NCBI RefSeq assembly: GCF_009498735.1
Contig: NZ_ML762424.1
Coordinates: forward strand, 92,619 to 156,618
Source of the DNA: Gracilibacillus oryzae
Lineage (GTDB): Bacteria; Bacillota; Bacilli; Bacillales; Amphibacillaceae
Reading direction: 5' to 3'
DNA: 64,000 nt
Shown: piece by piece, positions 9,843-61,059 of the stretch
How the letters are laid out: every line of letters starts with the position of its first letter
Numbering within the stretch: the stretch's first letter is position 1
The notes under the pieces: generated by a model
What the model was told of the DNA's origin: nothing
What the model saw: only the letters and a program-made list of their open reading frames with translations
Database searches by the model: none
Translations under genes and position numbers: made by a program

Positions 9843-11978
9843 ATGAAAAAAAAGCGGTTTAACTTTAAAAAGAAAGCAAAGAACAAACAGCCAAAAAAAG
9901 AACATAGGTTACAAGATATCATACATAAAATAAAGTTCCCTAAAAAGAAAGAGCAAAAATCAGCATACCATTCCACCATACCCAGAAAGCATTCGATTAG
10001 TACAAGAATTTTATTGAGTATTCTGTTAACTGTGCTAGTAAGCGTCATCATTGTAGGAGTTATGTCTTATACTATTTCTAATAACATCATAAAGAACAAA
10101 GTAACAGAAGCGACAGAACAAACCATTATCCAATCAGGTGACAAACTTGATTATATAATGCAGCAATACAAGGATCGTGTTACAGAAATTTTAATGTCAC
10201 CTAACTTCAGTAATACTGTTATGGAATTGAATTCTTATGAAGAAACAACCAGCTTTGAATATTTCACGCTTAAGAGCACTGTGGATGAAGCTCTCACCCA
10301 GGTAAAAATGATTGATGGGAATGTTAACTTATATTTCATAGATACTGCACAACAGCGTGTTGTTTCTTCAACCCAAACGATTGACGAAAAAAAGATTTTT
10401 GAAAGTGAATGGTATCGTGCAGCAGAAGAATCGAGACAATCGACTAATTGGATTGGCGGATTAATTGGCGGCGTTTCCACTACAAGTGAAAATCCAACCA
10501 TCAACTTTGCCCAAAAATTACGTATTGGGGGAGATAAGTACATTATGCTGGTAGAACTCGCTCCCGTAATTTTTGAAAAAGCATTGGAGAATGTCACCGT
10601 AGGGGAAGATGGCCATGCCTATGTGGTAAATCGAAACAATCAAGTAGTTTTTTCCTTTGATTCTGAAGAAATTACAACAGACTATCCATATGATATAAAA
10701 GCAGCTTCTGATGAGCAGACACTTGAAGAAAATGGAAGGGTAATAATGAAAAGTCCGTCTGATGTCACAAATTGGTTTTTAACAGGCTCTCTTGACAATT
10801 CAGAACTGACAAAGGACACGCGAGTTATCTTTTATGTAACACTCGGTATTATCGTTTTATCTTTAATTATCTCGATTTTTATTGGAAACGGAATAGTCCG
10901 AACTGTTGCCCGTCCTTTGGGAAATATCTCGAGCTTAATGGCTCAGGCAAAACAAGGGAAATTAACTGTCCGTTCTTCTGATATAAAACGGAAAGACGAA
11001 ATCGGCGAACTTGCCACAAGCTTTAATACAATGTTAGAGAATATATCGCAAATGATGCAGAAAACGAGAAACTCAGCAAATATGGTACTCGATGCTGCAA
11101 CAAAATTAACAGATATCTCTCAAACACAGTCACAATCAGCAAAAGAAGTGGCTGCAGCTTCTGAAGAAATCGCCAGCGGTGCAACAGGCTTAACAGATGA
11201 AGCAGAAAAAGGAAACTCCCTTGCAATAACAATTCATGACGAGGTCGAGAATGTTTTCCAAAACAATGCGGAAATGGAATCACATGCAATAGGAGTGCTA
11301 GAAAGAAGCCATGAAGGATTAGAAAAAATGAACGAACTTGTCGAAACCACTAAAGATGGCGATCAAATGACAAAAGCACTTGTAAATAAAGTAGATACAT
11401 TAAAAACGAGTACAGAGCAAATTTCTGATGTGATGATTATGCTGACAAATATCGTACAACAAACAAATTTATTATCACTAAATGCAGCGATTGAAGCAGC
11501 AAGAGCAGGAGAAGCCGGAAAAGGTTTTGCGGTTGTTGCTGATGAAATCAGAAAACTGTCTGAACAATCAAAACAATCCATTAATCGTGTTGATGAGATT
11601 ACAACAGGAATTGTCAATGAGGTGAATGATACATTAAAAGTATTAGAACAGGCAAATCCTCGTTTCCAGGCTCAAGTTACACAGGCCGAAGAGACACAAA
11701 CACTGCTAAACAGCGTCGGGGAAAGTATGGGGTCTTTTACAGGGAAAATACAGCATGTTACAGAATCTATTCAGCAATTAAGAAATTCTCAGGAAATTTT
11801 GTCTGCAACGATTCATCAAGTAAGTGCAACAGCGGAGGAGTCATCAGCAATCAGTGAAGAAGTGTCAGCAACAACAGAAGAGCAGTTAAAAGTAAGCGAA
11901 ACACTTGTAACAACATCTGATGAATTAAAACACCTGGCGGAAGACCTTCAGGAAATGATGAAGAAATTTCAAATATAA
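9843..11978 (+). CDS. Methyl-accepting chemotaxis protein with very basic N-terminal tail
   Basis: The 711-residue receptor has a first membrane helix at about 55-78, an extracellular dCache-like sensor region (about 80-325), a second helix at about 328-350, a HAMP domain (about 350-405), and a signalling domain. The conserved hairpin tip [20 protein letters not shown] binds CheA/CheW. Before the first helix lies an unusual tail of about 50 residues crowded with Lys and Arg. The start is clear: GGAGG lies 7 bases before the ATG. It is monocistronic, with a terminator 24 bases after the stop. The ligand is unknown; the position next to the pectin locus hints at a sugar but does not show it. 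Confidence 0.9.
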
Positions 11979-12001: not shown

Positions 12002-12041
12002 ATGAAGTACACGGCAAAATCCTGCCTGTACTTCATTTTTT
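12002..12041 (+). terminator. Terminator of the chemotaxis receptor gene
   Basis: ATGAAGTACA pairs with TGTACTTCAT, with a G/C-rich inner part, followed by six T residues. Confidence 0.88.
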
Positions 12042-12065: not shown

Positions 12066-12239
12066 GCTTTATAGCTTCATAACTGGCAGGAACTCCGACA
12101 CTTTTGATGGTATGAACGCTTTATAACATCATAACTGGCGAGAGCTCCGGCACTTTTGATGCTATGAACGCTTCATGGCTTCATAACTTACTGGAACTCC
12201 GACACTTTTGATGCTATGAACGCTTCTTATCTTCATAAC
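12066..12239. repeat. Tandem array of 52-bp repeats (array 1, about 3.3 copies)
   Basis: Units begin at 12066, 12118 and 12170 and are each exactly 52 bases long, with a partial fourth copy from 12222. Each contains the core ACTCCGACACTTTTGATG with few changes. Across unit boundaries GCTATGAA and TTCATAGC (or near versions) form an 8-bp stem with a CGC loop. 52 is not a multiple of three and no frame stays open, so it is not coding. It lies between two convergent genes. Array 2 at 43542 has the same period and design. Confidence 0.9.
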
Positions 12240-12240
12240 T

Positions 12241-12309
12241 AAAAACCAGCTCCTGTCATATGGCATTCAGGTTTTTTTACAAAAAACCTTCATTTCCATG
12301 ACTGGAGCT
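12241..12309 (-). terminator. Large inverted repeat ending the rhamnogalacturonan operon
   Basis: AGCTCC at 12248 pairs with GGAGCT at 12304, and the 28-29-base arms match imperfectly to the loop around 12278. On the minus strand the stem is followed by TTTTTAG. It sits 47 bases past the last gene of the operon and directly adjoins array 1. Confidence 0.7.
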
Positions 12310-12355
12310 AGTATTATCGAGGTTATCCGGAGAATAAATCACTGTTTTTCTTAAC

Positions 12356-13648
12356 TTATTTCATGTCTTTGCTTGTATCCTGTTCGATGTATTCACCGCC
12401 AGGATACAAGGTTACAGCATAAGACCTTTTACTCTGTGGTAAAGTTCGATCACTTTTAACAGACAAATCGATAGGTTCATTTCCGTAAACATAAGCAGTT
12501 GTCTGGTTATATACAATGACTTGCTTCTTCCCACTCCCAACTAAATCATCATAAACAACATAACCATCAACAGGGAATGTTGCCACTATTTGCTGGTAGC
12601 CATCATAAATTGTTGGAAGTACATCTCCACCACGTCTGTATGCAATAATATAATCCAGGTCACTATCATCCCAACTGTCAATTGTATCAATAATAGTCAG
12701 CCAGCCATCTGTTTGTCTATTCTCTTTCCATACCTCCTGCCCATTCTCATCAAGTAAGAAAATACCATCTTTTCCGTCCGAATAATGGGAACCCCTTATA
12801 ATCCTGTCAAGCCCGGCAACTTGCAATCCAGGTAAATCTTCTCTAAATTTTCCGATACAAACATGCTGCGATTCAATTGAACCATTGTACCGCCAGAGTT
12901 CCTTACCTTTCCAATCATATAAAACAGTCACACTTCCACCAATAACTAACTGGAAGTCAGAAGCATTTTGCTGAACTTTACCCACCCATATACAATCTGC
13001 ATGATCATCCAATTCTTTACAAGACCATAGCAGTTCTCCATCAGAGTTAAGAAAATCATAACCAGCCATTACTTCATCCTTACCATCACCATTAAAATCG
13101 AAAACCCAGGGAAAATGCCCGATATTTCCTTTATGTGTCCATAAAAGTTCCCCTTCGGCATTCATTGCCCACATTTGATGATAGCGATCCTTTAAAATTA
13201 TATCTTGTGAAAATGCATTTCCCGCCAAATTAGCGATCACGATGCAATCATGAGCATGTTCACCTGGCAGAGAGAATTCTTTTTTTATATCTCCTGTTCT
13301 TCCATTAATGATCCGGAACGTTTTATCCATTACACATAGAACTTCATTATACCCGTCCCCATCAATATCATAGATTTGCACAGGATAGTCACTTCCAGGA
13401 CCGCCTGGTTCATTACCAGGTGTACCAATTTGCCAGATAACGCTCCCTTCCATATTGAATGCAGTCATTGCTTCTACTTGATGCGGAACATATCTGTCAT
13501 CAATCCCGCTATCTGGCTGAACCATCAGCAAATCTTTCCGTCCATCTCCTGTTAAATCACCAAGATACATTTTGCAATTCTTCCCTGCTTCTCCAATATT
13601 GATCTCTCTCAATCGAACCGGTTTTGTCTTTTCAGCCGTGGTTTTCAT
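12356..13648 (-). CDS. FG-GAP/VCBS beta-propeller protein, possibly PL11-related
   Basis: The 430-residue protein has no signal peptide. It shows repeated calcium-type loops: DLTGDG (31-36), DIDGDG (94-99) and DFNGDG (184-189), plus weaker later blades, which indicates a seven- or eight-bladed propeller. The blade pattern and the pectin context recall the catalytic propeller of family 11 rhamnogalacturonan lyases (YesW/YesX), but the N-terminal domain of those enzymes is missing and I cannot confirm a catalytic site. It is the last gene of the operon, 24 bases after yesL, with its own good ribosome site. It could be a cytoplasmic lyase or a sugar-binding protein. Confidence 0.65.
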   Translation of the reverse strand: MKTTAEKTKPVRLREINIGEAGKNCKMYLGDLTGDGRKDLLMVQPDSGIDDRYVPHQVEAMTAFNMEGSVIWQIGTPGNEPGGPGSDYPVQIYDIDGDGYNEVLCVMDKTFRIINGRTGDIKKEFSLPGEHAHDCIVIANLAGNAFSQDIILKDRYHQMWAMNAEGELLWTHKGNIGHFPWVFDFNGDGKDEVMAGYDFLNSDGELLWSCKELDDHADCIWVGKVQQNASDFQLVIGGSVTVLYDWKGKELWRYNGSIESQHVCIGKFREDLPGLQVAGLDRIIRGSHYSDGKDGIFLLDENGQEVWKENRQTDGWLTIIDTIDSWDDSDLDYIIAYRRGGDVLPTIYDGYQQIVATFPVDGYVVYDDLVGSGKKQVIVYNQTTAYVYGNEPIDLSVKSDRTLPQSKRSYAVTLYPGGEYIEQDTSKDMK

Positions 13649-42213: not shown

Positions 42214-42786
42214 ATGGCAAACAATTTCGCTAAGTCCTCGCATCACACGGAACTCAATGATATTTATACAGACCAGCCAAGCGAGGAAACGTGGCTAAAT
42301 GACCTGATGAACGAATATGGACAGGAGATTATCTGGTTAGCATACAGTTATGTAAGAGATAGGGCTATTGCTGAAGATTTAGCACAAAATGCCTTTATAA
42401 AATGTTACCAAAAACGAGAAGAGTTTAAAAATAACTCTTCAATAAAGACCTGGATCTATCGAATCACCATTAATTGCTGTAAAGATTATCTGAGAAGCTC
42501 CTACGTTAAACGCAATATCCCTACTAATATGAAAGAAATATTGAATCGTGAAAGGGCCCCATCATCAGAATCTGCATATATGGAAAAAGATACTTCCAGC
42601 ACTCTAATTGAGTGTGTATTTTCATTAGGTCCCAAATATCGAGAAGTAATCATATTACATTATTTTGAGGAGTTAAAAGTTAGAGAGATAAAAGAAATAC
42701 TTCAATTAAATGAGAATACGATAAAAACCAGACTGAAGAAGGCAAAAGAAATTCTTAGAAAAAAAATAGACAGAGGTGATTTCTAA
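42214..42786 (+). CDS. ECF-type RNA polymerase sigma factor
   Basis: The 190-residue protein has region 2 (WLAYSYVRDRAIAEDLAQNAFIKCYQ and IKTWIYRITINCCKDYLR) and region 4 (LGPKYREVIILHYFEELKVREIKEIL with an HTH at the end). It lacks regions 1 and 3, as ECF factors do, and looks like the SigV/SigW/SigM-related group. It would be held by the membrane protein encoded next. The start is ATG 42214, with GGAGG 8 bases ahead; a TTG at 42193 inside the same frame is too early. Confidence 0.9.
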   Translation: MANNFAKSSHHTELNDIYTDQPSEETWLNDLMNEYGQEIIWLAYSYVRDRAIAEDLAQNAFIKCYQKREEFKNNSSIKTWIYRITINCCKDYLRSSYVKRNIPTNMKEILNRERAPSSESAYMEKDTSSTLIECVFSLGPKYREVIILHYFEELKVREIKEILQLNENTIKTRLKKAKEILRKKIDRGDF

Positions 42787-42787
42787 A

Positions 42788-43510
42788 ATGGAAAATAAAT
42801 TAAAAAATCTTAGAAACGATATGATTTCCTCTGAGTTAAAGAACATTAAATTCGGCTCAAAGCAAAAACACAATGTTTTTCAGCAATTACACGAAAAAAA
42901 AGCAAAAAGGACACTCTTGCCTAAATTGATAAGTGTAGCGGTTACTCTATCTCTGCTGTTTTTCTTAGGAACCATTACAATTGATCATTTTACAAGTGAA
43001 GAACGAACGAATAGCAATATGAATACCGGTCAGGAAGAGCAAGCTGCTGCCGCACCCGCAGGAGAAGGAACTTACAAGTCAATTCTTCAAGGTGATGTTG
43101 GTACTATTGTGGAGAATGGCGATGTTATTTTTGAAAGAGTGGCAGATGATAGTTTGCCAGTAGAAGAAACTGATGGAACAATGGGCGATCTTGAATTCTT
43201 AATATCATTAAGTGGTCTTGATCATTCCCAACAATTTGAGATAAATGGAGAATTTAAGTATGCAAAATTTTGGATTCAAAATACAGGATCAAAGAGCATT
43301 ACAATCTCATTAGAGGATATTACAAGAAAAGATTGGGATGTTATAGAAGGATTTACTGTTAGAATACCTGCTGGCGAAACATGGAGTTTTTACAGCAAAA
43401 ATGCCTTGTCCAATGGAACATATTATCTAAACTTCACATTAGGCAGAGCTTATATGTCTGGTCAATCTGCTGCTATCATAGCACCAACACTCGCTGATTT
43501 AGATAGATAA
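42788..43510 (+). CDS. Probable membrane anti-sigma factor
   Basis: The 240-residue protein has a cytoplasmic N-terminal part (about 1-42), one helix at about 46-64 (LISVAVTLSLLFFLGTI), and an outside part of about 175 residues that I do not recognise. The gene starts 1 base after the sigma-factor stop. This build and location fit an anti-sigma factor that holds the ECF factor until an envelope signal leads to its cleavage. No zinc-binding HxxxCxxC motif is visible, so it is not of the ZAS class. The function is inferred from context only. Confidence 0.65.
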   Translation: MENKLKNLRNDMISSELKNIKFGSKQKHNVFQQLHEKKAKRTLLPKLISVAVTLSLLFFLGTITIDHFTSEERTNSNMNTGQEEQAAAAPAGEGTYKSILQGDVGTIVENGDVIFERVADDSLPVEETDGTMGDLEFLISLSGLDHSQQFEINGEFKYAKFWIQNTGSKSITISLEDITRKDWDVIEGFTVRIPAGETWSFYSKNALSNGTYYLNFTLGRAYMSGQSAAIIAPTLADLDR

Positions 43511-43541: not shown

Positions 43542-43757
43542 CATTTTGCAATACTCTTTCAGTGCATTGAGTTCCTCCGATCACAAGTCTCATGGCATTG
43601 ATTTGCTCTCTCAATGCCTTCACTCTCTCCGATCACTACTCTCATGGCATTGAACCGCTCTCTTAATGCCTTCACTCTCTCCGATCACAACTCTCACGGC
43701 ATTGATCCACTCTCTCAATGCCTTCACTCTCTCCGATCACAATTCTCACGGCAGTGG
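43542..43757. repeat. Tandem array of 52-bp repeats (array 2, about 4 copies)
   Basis: Units begin at 43594, 43646 and 43698, with a broken copy at 43750 and a degenerate first copy from about 43542; each spacing is exactly 52 bases. Each unit contains GGCATTGA and TCAATGCC, which form an 8-bp stem around a 9-base loop, followed by TTCACTCTCTCCGATCAC. One unit has TTAATGCC, keeping a G-U pair. It lies between convergent genes, like array 1, and has no spacer sequences, so it is not a CRISPR array. Confidence 0.92.
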
Positions 43758-43822
43758 TGAAAGAGAACATCACACCAGCTGTTATTTTCCCCCTGGTTTT
43801 CTCATTAAGAAAGACCGCCGTT

Positions 43823-44599
43823 TCAATGGCGATCTTTTACTTGATAAAAAGTAACAGTATTCTTCACAATCGTTGCAGATACCGTTCCGAATGGCATGTT
43901 TTTTATTCGCGCTATTTGTGCAAGGGATTGTTCCATCATCTTAGGATGTGTCATCTGCCCTTGAAATGGTCCTTCAAATTGCCAGGGGCCGTCTGTTTCA
44001 ACCATCATTAACTCAAGCGGATATTGCTCAATCAATCTTTGAATTTCTTGTTCGTACAAACAATCTGGTGTTACAGATATCATATATTTCCGCTCAATCA
44101 TTCGTTGGATAGTCTTTTCTGATCCTTTAAACCAGTGAAAATGTGCTTTTGTCACCTGATGTTTCTCAAGCAAGTCACAAACAAGCTCTGCATCTTCATA
44201 GATGGCATGAAGAACAATCGGCAAGTCGCACTTTTTCGCCAATGAAAGAAATCGCTCCAATATCTCCGTATATGGCTGCACATCAAGAAAAGGATCTTCT
44301 TTTTTCATATAATATGGTAAGCCCACCTCACCAATTGCTGCAAGAGAATCTTGATGTTTATGAATCATTTCCTCTATTGCATCAAGTTCTGCTTCACTTG
44401 GCAGCTTTTGCTCCGGATGCCAGCCGAACGCCGGATAAACGTGTGGGCACGCTTGATGAAGTTTCCATACGTTGTTACATGAATTCAAATCACTCGATAC
44501 CGCAATAACGCCGTCGATCGTACGTTTTTCCAAATCCTCTAAAATTATCGCTTGTTCTTCCTCATTATACCAGTCCAAATGAATGTGGGCATCAATCAT
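43823..44599 (-). CDS. TatD-family metal-dependent hydrolase
   Basis: The 258-residue TIM-barrel protein has the metal motif DAHIHLD (His5, His7), then a Glu in AIGEVGLPYY, His in VLHAIYEDAE, His in AHFHWFKG, and Asp in MVETDGPW. This is a divergent TatD-type hydrolase. TatD proteins are known as nucleases, but here the gene overlaps the last gene of a thiamine-precursor import operon by 8 bases, so a role in salvage of a pyrimidine or vitamin fragment is possible. The stop codon is inside a hairpin (43811-43836) that may serve as terminator. Confidence 0.82.
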   Translation of the reverse strand: MIDAHIHLDWYNEEEQAIILEDLEKRTIDGVIAVSSDLNSCNNVWKLHQACPHVYPAFGWHPEQKLPSEAELDAIEEMIHKHQDSLAAIGEVGLPYYMKKEDPFLDVQPYTEILERFLSLAKKCDLPIVLHAIYEDAELVCDLLEKHQVTKAHFHWFKGSEKTIQRMIERKYMISVTPDCLYEQEIQRLIEQYPLELMMVETDGPWQFEGPFQGQMTHPKMMEQSLAQIARIKNMPFGTVSATIVKNTVTFYQVKDRH

Positions 44600-47496: not shown

Positions 47497-47515
47497 ATAT
47501 AGATAGCATTATCCC

Positions 47516-47610
47516 ATATGTTCCCTACGCTGGTTCTAACCAGATCAGGTTCTAAGGGTCAGTATCTGTACGGATACAATCTCAACTGGCAACACCAGTC
47601 CCCCCACATT
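47516..47610 (-). ncRNA. TPP (THI-box) riboswitch
   Basis: The minus strand contains the conserved TPP aptamer elements in order: GGGG start, TGAGA, ACCCTT with GAACCTGATCTGG, then GTTAGAACCAGCGTAGGGAA. All landmark positions of the THI box are present. With TPP bound, the downstream hairpin would end transcription of the thiY-thiX-thiZ operon. Confidence 0.95.
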
Positions 47611-47715
47611 TTTTTATGATCTTATCTTATTACTTTGACATAAAACAACAAATAGTTCAAGTTTTTTCTTCTGTACAATTATGTTGAAGATAACGAGAAG
47701 GAAGATGGTTTCTGT

Positions 47716-55053: not shown

Positions 55054-56112
55054 TTAATATTGCAATGCCTTTTCTAAAACTTCTAAGTTTTTTTCCATTA
55101 ACGTGAAATATGTTTCATCATTTTCAATGTTTTCTTCTGTTAATGTAGCTAAATTGTGTAGTTGTAAAGGTTCCACTTGAGCTTCTTCTTGGATAACCTT
55201 CGCTACTTTCGGTTCTACATTTTGTTCAAACAAAAGATACTTTATTCCGCTTTCTTCCACCTGGTTTAATATTTCTTCGATTTTCTTTTGTGATGGTTCA
55301 TCAGAAGAAGATATACCAGAAATAGCTATTTGTTCCATACCGTAGCTCTGCTCCCAGTACCCGTAAGCTGCATGTGTTACTAAGATCTCTTTGTTTGGAG
55401 CTTGCTCAATTGTTTCATGAAAAGACTCATCTAATGCTATTAATCTTTCTTCAAGGTTATGAAAGTTTTCTTCAAAATAATCAGCTTGTTCTGGTTTTAA
55501 TTCAACAAGTGCTTTTTTAATGTTTTCAGCCAAGTCAATTGCTTTGATTGGATCTAGCCATATATGCGGATCTTTGCCACCATGGTCGTGATCATGGCCT
55601 TCTTCTTCATGGGCATGCTCTTCATGACTGTGCTCTTCTTCATCATGAGCATGTTCTCCATGACTGTGCTCTTCTCCATGTTCATGACTATGCGTGTGTT
55701 CCACAAGGTTTATGCCTTCTGCTGCTTCTATGATTTTCACATCTTCATCTTGCAGTGCATCTTCGATTGAGCTGGCATATGATTCCATTTCTGCTCCATT
55801 ATAAACAAATAAGTCCCCTTCTGCTATTTCGACCATCAGCTTGGAGGTTGGTTCAAATGTATGGGCATCCGTGCCTGGAGGCAGGATACTAGTTGCATTC
55901 ACATACTCTCCTCCAATTTCTTTTGTAAAAAATTGTAATGGATACAATGTTGTATAGATATCTATTACCTCGCTGTTTGTTTTTTGTGCGTCTGTTCCTG
56001 CAGTTGTATCTTGATTGCCAGTGCTGTCAGCCTCTGACTGCTCTTCTTGTCCACAAGCTGCAAGCAAAATAATAAAGAAAAATGATAAAACTAGTAAGCT
56101 TGTTTTTTTCAT
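55054..56112 (-). CDS. znuA: Zinc ABC transporter binding lipoprotein (ZnuA/AdcA-like)
   Basis: The 352-residue lipoprotein has lipobox LAAC (Cys20) and a cluster-9 metal-binding fold: TLYPLQFFTKEIGGEY, PGTDAHTFEPTSK, DPHIWLDPIKA and VTHAAYGYWEQSYG, which hold the three His ligands and an acidic one. A long His/Asp/Glu-rich loop at about 130-172 (with more than a dozen His) is typical of zinc binding proteins. The permease and ATPase genes are not next to it and must lie elsewhere. Two Zur boxes upstream predict induction in zinc shortage. The start is ATG 56112 after AGGGGG. Confidence 0.9.
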   Translation of the reverse strand: MKKTSLLVLSFFFIILLAACGQEEQSEADSTGNQDTTAGTDAQKTNSEVIDIYTTLYPLQFFTKEIGGEYVNATSILPPGTDAHTFEPTSKLMVEIAEGDLFVYNGAEMESYASSIEDALQDEDVKIIEAAEGINLVEHTHSHEHGEEHSHGEHAHDEEEHSHEEHAHEEEGHDHDHGGKDPHIWLDPIKAIDLAENIKKALVELKPEQADYFEENFHNLEERLIALDESFHETIEQAPNKEILVTHAAYGYWEQSYGMEQIAISGISSSDEPSQKKIEEILNQVEESGIKYLLFEQNVEPKVAKVIQEEAQVEPLQLHNLATLTEENIENDETYFTLMEKNLEVLEKALQY

Positions 56113-60882: not shown

Positions 60883-60919
60883 AAAAAAAAAAAATCATAC
60901 CTAAGGTAGAGGTACGATT
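60883..60919 (-). terminator. preQ1 riboswitch terminator
   Basis: On the minus strand AATCGTACC and GGTATGATT form a stem that runs into about 12 T residues. CTAAGG at the aptamer's 3' end can instead pair with CCTTAG in the loop, giving an antiterminator. Confidence 0.85.
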
Positions 60920-60921
60920 AT

Positions 60922-60957
60922 CCTTAGTTTTTTATAGAGGGTGCAGCTAGAACCTCT
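60922..60957 (-). ncRNA. preQ1-I riboswitch
   Basis: The minus strand reads AGAGGTTCTAGCTGCACCCT then CTATAAAAAACTAAGG, the H-type pseudoknot of class I preQ1 aptamers. Ligand binding would favour the terminator downstream and stop queCDE expression. Confidence 0.95.
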
Positions 60958-61059
60958 CCTGCAAGATTTGCAGACTTTTATTTAATTTCATACAAGTAAT
61001 ATTATAGCACAACAAGGCTGATTCAGAAACCCGATATCAGTCCAGTAATAAGGTATTAT

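Follow-up and report, generated by a model that had tools for sequence, protein, structure and literature searches.

What maintains tandem repeats whose unit length is fixed while their sequence is not? The question is raised by two intergenic arrays in a stretch of 64,000 nucleotides of the Gracilibacillus oryzae genome (hereafter, the window), each built of 52-bp units that differ in sequence from those of the other. Subirana & Messeguer (2021) described tandem repeats of constant length (52 nt) and variable sequence in Bacillus, without an assigned function; in 176 Bacillus genomes, 1886 of 4029 arrays consist of 51-53-nt repeats, with species-specific sequences (PMC8161180). The published picture of such satellites is thus one of constant length without sequence conservation or an assigned role. 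The conserved dyad and strong replication polarity reported here make the question "why 52?" testable, through the search for a dyad binder and through the effect of array inversion.

Two arrays of 52-bp units in the window

A preliminary description of this DNA had reported both arrays with units of exactly 52 bp, and TRF scores of 245 and 288, against a highest score of 57 at periods of at least 15 in 20 shuffled windows, establish them as real (Table 1). Array 2 itself stands as described, but its start, placed at 43542, does not. Likewise, the 8-bp stem reported for array 1 is present, but as the inner portion of a dyad that extends over 27 nt; every unit of both arrays does carry an 8-bp inverted repeat plus CTCCGA or CTCCGG. 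By eye, the dyads of array 1 show a single G.T at one junction and mismatches at two. ORF calls and Pfam agree with the description in placing a convergent gene pair around each array.

Table 1. Features at and around the two arrays (positions in the window)
Feature	Position	Strand	Details
Methyl-accepting chemotaxis protein (MCP) gene	9843..11978	+	Pfam: MCPsignal, HAMP; flanks array 1
Terminator-like hairpin 3' of chemotaxis-receptor gene, then T run	12002..12036	+	fold -18.2 kcal/mol, z -7.1
Array 1	12066..12240	-	TRF: 52 bp x 3.4, 83% matches, score 245; AAA-after-dyad polarity on -
Array 1, dyad 1 (27 nt)	12105..12131		consensus dyad TGATGCTATGAACGCTTCATAGCTTCA; 6/7 outer pairs
Array 1, further dyads	12157-12183, 12209-12235		
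Terminator-like hairpin 3' of FG-GAP gene, then T run	12245..12312	-	fold -31 kcal/mol, z -6.3
FG-GAP repeat protein gene	12356..13648	-	Pfam; flanks array 1
Gene without Pfam match	42776..43510	+	flanks array 2
Array 2	43575..43753	-	TRF: 52 bp x 3.4, 90% matches, score 288; GGCATTGA/TCAATGCC dyads
Array 2, dyad 1 (25 nt)	43594..43618		
Array 2, further dyads	43646-43670, 43698-43722		
Hairpin, TatD side of array 2	43810..43837		terminator-like match 43816-43831 on +
TatD-related DNase gene	43823..44599	-	Pfam; flanks array 2

The strand of array 1 on which an AAA tract follows the dyad is the leading strand of its contig, as judged from GC skew (window skew -0.130). The AAA rule cannot score array 2, which has a purine fraction of 0.32 on the plus strand and hence 0.68 on the minus, leading strand. 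A search of Rfam 15 at the gathering score gave no match at either array; its only matches in the window are a TPP riboswitch (47505-47615) and a PreQ1 riboswitch (60918-60962), both on the minus strand. A separate repeat with a 36-bp period lies within a coding region at 55599-55679.

Members of a published repeat class

The window arrays and their relatives share with the published 52-nt Bacillus repeats a constant period of 51-53, a non-coding location, species-specific families with several per genome, short signals accompanied by their reverse within one repeat, and rarity or absence in many relatives (PMC8161180). The search in that study was set to at least four repeats per array, whereas the two window arrays have 3.4 copies each, other arrays of G. 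oryzae having 5-9; the four-copy threshold marks a limit of detection rather than a biological boundary, and arrays 1 and 2 are new members of the class. Sequence conservation is not reported there, and the text contains no analysis of orientation or gene context; the dyad geometry with constrained arms, the recurrent TGTCC-N17-GGACA dyad and the replication polarity described below are absent from the 2021 text and are added here. We found no literature report of replication polarity for 52-nt repeats, although the same authors' J Bacteriol 2020 paper may contain an earlier one.

The proposal that the two arrays belong to one class, with a fixed period, differing sequences and local homogenization, holds beyond the window. 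The genome-wide search that had been suggested yielded further 52-bp arrays in G. oryzae (genome 4.63 Mb): TRF reports 13 rows with a 52-bp period over 856 kb, and there are 77 matches across the genome to the pattern TGATAGN{14,16}CTATCAAAA, against 0 for the reversed control. Two 52-bp arrays with a near-identical unit lie at contig ends (G000:C21:77-258 and G000:C35:74-254) and may be a single array at which the assembly broke.

The period is also kept in close relatives, at 50-52 bp, with 21 bp as a second class: the intergenic arrays of three congeneric genomes (2.06 Mb), counted from 2.5 copies upward, have periods of 19 (1 array), 21 (16), 50 (2), 51 (3) and 52 (19). This survey excluded 14 arrays of 51 bp and 1 of 50 bp as coding, the former partly because 51, as a multiple of three, opens spurious frames (which were removed in later counts). 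Nine intergenic arrays were found in 711 kb from 80 named loci, mostly of Paenibacillus, with periods of 18 (2), 23, 39, 52 (2), 103, 123 and 153, so that 52 is not dominant there.

The 21-bp arrays have features of their own. Near 765.1, 776.1, 782.7, 866.4 and 880.9 kb of G012:C13 they come in facing pairs, in which units of the ACGGGAATT type or similar are followed, a few to 40 bp away, by reverse-complement arrays. A purine-rich 21-bp repeat of 18.6 copies (GCAAGAAGAGAGCGGGAAGTC) lies within a predicted ORF of G. oryzae (G000:C3:137588-137971).

A recurrent 27-bp dyad

The unit dyad spans 27 bp, with 10-bp arms, a 7-nt loop and TG...CA ends, and is followed by AAA. The test set was 63 non-redundant units, 49-54 bp long (22 from G. 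oryzae, 17 from G007, 1 from G012 and 23 from loci found via the CTCCGA pattern). Perfect outer arms of 7 bp are in excess over shuffled sequences at all spans from 16 to 46, with the peak at 27 (15 observed, 0.14 expected); a single repeat can enter this count several times, through its nested and complementary spans, and not all units show a clear dyad. Arm half-sites set at helical multiples within the unit were also considered and rejected: by eye their spacings vary, and only the outer span of 27 and the period hold.

The pattern TGTCCN{15,19}GGACAAAA matches in 181 of the 299 genomes of the order, many with single hits at chance expectation. At least 15 matches occur in 21 genomes of 11 families, by hand count among the matches listed; in one of these, G137, the reversed control gives as many matches as the pattern itself, which leaves 20 of the 299 genomes, in ten families, clearly above control. 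Among the matches listed, those that recur at a spacing of about 52 bp have a 17-nt interval.

The arms extend beyond the bases that this pattern fixes. Sixty-six arrays yielded 61 distinct TGTCC-N17-GGACA consensus dyads. The pattern leaves pairs 6-10 free, and these are Watson-Crick in 80, 95, 92, 84 and 82% of the dyads, as against 38, 49, 36, 63 and 50% when the halves are permuted; pairs 11 and 12 do no better than permuted halves, and pair 13 does worse. Shifting the partner by 1-3 bases lowers the pairing from 0.87 to at most 0.36. Complementarity between arrays of differing sequence, which the preliminary description had put forward for a covariation check, is thus strong. Even between arrays of one genome the inner arms vary while keeping their symmetry, a poor fit to a single sequence-specific protein and a better one to recognition of structure, such as a cruciform.

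CTCCGA, the proposed shared core, fared differently. Three spaced copies of the hexamer occur in 57 of the 299 genomes (about 193 matches), but its reversed form is equally widespread (56 genomes, about 125 matches; the 56 and both match totals were counted by hand). In G. oryzae the CTCCGA pattern has 4 matches against 0 for the control, at differing distances from the dyad; these early matches in the host genome were suggestive of a universal core, an idea dropped after the reversed-hexamer control. CTCCGA is a feature of the G. oryzae genome and not a class-wide core.

Arms and A tract are constrained within arrays

Within arrays, variation in the arms and the AAA tract is roughly three-fold below that of the spacer. 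In 68 arrays with 443 copies, pairwise differences average 0.049 for the outer arms, 0.064 for the inner arms, 0.172 for the loop, 0.048 for AAA and 0.171 for the remaining spacer, the outer arms varying less than the spacer in 61 arrays and more in 5. Contigs that had not been chosen by the dyad pattern supplied 23 arrays with 102 copies, in which the values are 0.058 for the arms, 0.137 for the loop, 0.022 for AAA and 0.180 for the spacer, with the arms lower than the spacer in 19 arrays and higher in 2.

Inside arrays, the earlier statement that pair changes keep pairing does not hold: among pairs that deviate from the array consensus (536 copies, 85 arrays), 9 are still Watson-Crick and 265 are broken. 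Read in the leading-strand sense, the mismatched pairs comprise 123 G.T and 113 A.C, from 31 and 30 arrays, respectively, and such a lack of G.T excess is expected if both strands count alike. The arm mismatches give no indication that a fold is under selection on one strand, and a one-strand RNA fold was rejected on this ground; RNA from both strands is still compatible.

Orientation follows replication

The joint polarity count covers 108 intergenic arrays from 13 genomes: 29 from G272, 23 from G. oryzae, 19 from G007, 16 from G151 and 1-4 from each of the others. With a strict dyad finder 21 are unscorable, 11 being symmetric and 10 lacking a dyad. The strand on which AAA follows the dyad is the local leading strand, by GC skew, in 81 of the 87 scorable arrays, with 6 against. 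An AAAA-containing pattern was used to find the arrays in G151, in G272 and in the small set; it fixes the A side, not its relation to replication.

With gene contexts taken from simple ORF calls, polarity agrees with replication in 36 of 39 arrays whose neighbours both run along replication, 30 of 32 between convergent genes, 5 of 5 between divergent genes and 3 of 4 with one neighbour unseen. It also agrees in all 7 arrays, in six gaps, whose neighbours both run against replication; in five of these gaps 9 of 10 neighbour proteins score above the Pfam family cut-off and one has no match, and the sixth gap lies between predicted ORFs of 97 and 100 aa. Our first reading, in which transcription sets the orientation, was dropped once orientation proved independent of the neighbours and followed replication. 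A looser dyad finder places the A side, whatever the neighbours, on the minus strand in 6 of 6 scorable arrays on G. oryzae contig C1 (7 arrays in all, array 2 being unscorable) and on the plus strand in 14 of 14 on contig C3 (15 in all); in G007 the A side is divided 13 to 2. Gene strand and GC skew identify the leading strand as minus for C1, plus for C3 and plus for G007:C12.

The complete chromosome of G151 (4.85 Mb) covers both replichores. Its 51 plus-strand sites (16 loci) all lie at 0.21-2.18 Mb and its 38 minus-strand sites (9 loci) at 3.04-4.33 Mb, and GC skew, in 6-kb samples, stays positive as far as 2.45 Mb and has turned negative by 2.60 Mb; the 25 loci, with 89 sites among them, thus all change strand across the skew flip, and the terminus side has no arrays. 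Among sixteen sampled arrays, the longest match between replichores is 71 identical bases in mirrored orientation, as against 15 in the other. In G272 (4.81 Mb), also a complete chromosome, where A's after and T's before TGTCC dyads were counted, the arrays listed for the right arm comprise 12 plus, 2 minus (a clear one at 1606498 and a weak one at 331786) and 3 that are nearly symmetric, and those for the left arm 5 minus and 1 nearly symmetric; the remaining listed arrays have no TGTCC dyad.

Could the polarity be a by-product, with purine-rich leading strands shaping the repeats, or with selection acting against inversions between dispersed repeats? Background intergenic windows do show a slight purine excess on the leading strand (mean 0.518, 54% above 0.5, n=5421), and arrays of period 24-48 are also purine-rich there (4 of 5, mean 0.585). 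The 52-bp arrays, however, reach a mean of 0.625, with 99 of 108 above 0.5, arrays of period 18-23 on the same contigs only 0.545 (14 of 22), and drift would not mirror near-identical units between replichores. We regard such a by-product as improbable.

The polarity suggests that the repeats act as DNA signals rather than as RNA. A transcribed hairpin RNA, in the form of a 3'-UTR stabilizer, a sponge or a small RNA, was discussed by Subirana & Messeguer; the dyads are able to fold, and B. coagulans arrays are present in RNA-seq according to an excerpt of PMC8625621. Yet orientation follows replication even where both neighbours are opposed, the window units fold just modestly better than shuffled ones (z -1.3 to -2.3) and Rfam has no match at the arrays, while the balance of G.T and A.C argues only against RNA of one strand. 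Taken together, this leaves an RNA role quite improbable.

Gene context

We counted gaps of at least 100 bp in sequence from G. oryzae (the host genome), G007, G012 and G272; the G272 regions had been chosen at arrays, which inflates the rates. Arrays occupy 25 of 136 convergent gaps, 29 of 554 co-directional gaps running with replication, 7 of 80 running against it and 4 of 219 divergent gaps, at rates of 0.65, 0.18, 0.30 and 0.06 per kb, respectively. At the level of gaps, arrays are about ten times as frequent between convergent as between divergent genes, and the convergent preference seen at the two window arrays extends to the class.

Termination of transcription, or insulation of convergent genes, is the role that this preference would favour, and the preliminary description had listed both. 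However, co-directional gaps with an array outnumber convergent ones (36 to 25), and a separate terminator-like hairpin stands outside array 1 on each side (Table 1), although neither was listed by a consensus terminator scan. The hairpins of the arrays themselves have no T runs after them, and terminator scans detected no intrinsic terminator (GC-rich hairpin plus T run) within array 1 or 2. A terminator or insulator role is therefore very improbable.

Mobile repeats, polar motifs and a putative binding-site array

The arrays could instead be selfish or by-product repeats that spread via single-stranded DNA at the fork, on the lagging-strand template, so that copies are born oriented and have no host function. 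The long mirrored matches in G151 would fit this origin, as would the variable presence of arrays between congeners and between B. coagulans strains (PMC8161180) and the orientation of IS200/IS605 elements, which likewise follows replication in the excerpted text of PMC5371812. Unlike these elements, the repeat unit has no transposase; Y1_Tnp matches in 18 of 20 genomes, three of which (G016, G056 and G245) have only short broken fragments, whereas the array-rich G014 and G119 have no match.

REP/BIME elements are clustered intergenic palindromes favoured 3' of genes and associated with RAYT transposases. The 52-bp arrays resemble them in being clustered intergenic palindromes with a preference for gene 3' sides, but are strictly tandem at 50-52 bp; RAYT (NF047646) has one match in G. 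oryzae (contig C24) and none in seven array-rich genomes (G014, G016, G056, G119, G224, G245 and G309). RAYT and Y1 transposases were accordingly rejected as required movers. If the arrays do spread on single-stranded fork DNA, they would be a replication-locked repeat, and one that does without a Y1 transposase in two or more of the array-rich genomes. Selfish spread is, in our judgment, unlikely but to be taken seriously; we prefer a binding-site array to it since neither transposase is needed in all array-rich genomes and since the A tract, which lies outside the palindrome, is conserved along with the arms.

KOPS, SRS and Chi are short single motifs skewed toward the leading strand along replichores. 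The arrays share this skew, but the motifs occur in few of the 108 arrays (SRS in 2, Lactococcus KOPS in 11, B. subtilis Chi in 17, E. coli KOPS in 0) and were rejected as the array motif, although GAAGAAG and AGCGG are denser in arrays than in the background. No period-52 array is present in the 500 kb of G. oryzae contig C2 (G000:C2:1-500000), and this gap, like the empty terminus side of G151, is unlike the distribution of KOPS. At about 350 kb of C2, gene strand and GC skew switch from plus to minus, the pattern expected of a replication terminus.

Protein binding, one of the roles offered at the outset, is the one that we favour: we put the chance that the arrays are replichore-polar, putative binding-site arrays acting at the DNA level at somewhat short of even. 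A period of 50-52 bp, about five helical turns, would put the dyads on one face of the helix, where a dimeric or structure-specific DNA-binding protein may occupy them. The A tract and the purine-rich spacer would give the array its direction, which would matter to a process that tracks the fork or travels along the replichore, and the preference for convergent gaps may reflect sites where such a platform harms expression least. More tentatively still, the arrays may represent Bacillales-wide, satellite-like DNA signals, built of a 27-bp dyad per five turns, locked to replication on both replichores and read by a putative protein, in a polar chromosome-organizing or fork-related system unlike KOPS, Chi and Ter.

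Several observations count against a binding-site array: the six wrong-way arrays, the unscorable ones, some of them symmetric, the inner arms that vary within one genome, the scarcity of known polar motifs, the lack of arrays on C2 and on the terminus side of G151, and the fact that orthologous Gracilibacillus gaps mostly have no array. Among named species, the FG-GAP protein beside array 1 has its closest relatives in G. ureilyticus (78%) and G. orientalis (77%). Seven other Gracilibacillus FG-GAP loci comprise one with an array (G. kekensis) and six without, of which that of Gracilibacillus YIM 98692 has a different next gene; the flanks are too diverged for an empty-site comparison. The G. 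kekensis array (L228, 5702-5832) lies behind the FG-GAP gene in a gap that is partly N, and its 52-bp units are unlike those of array 1 in sequence.
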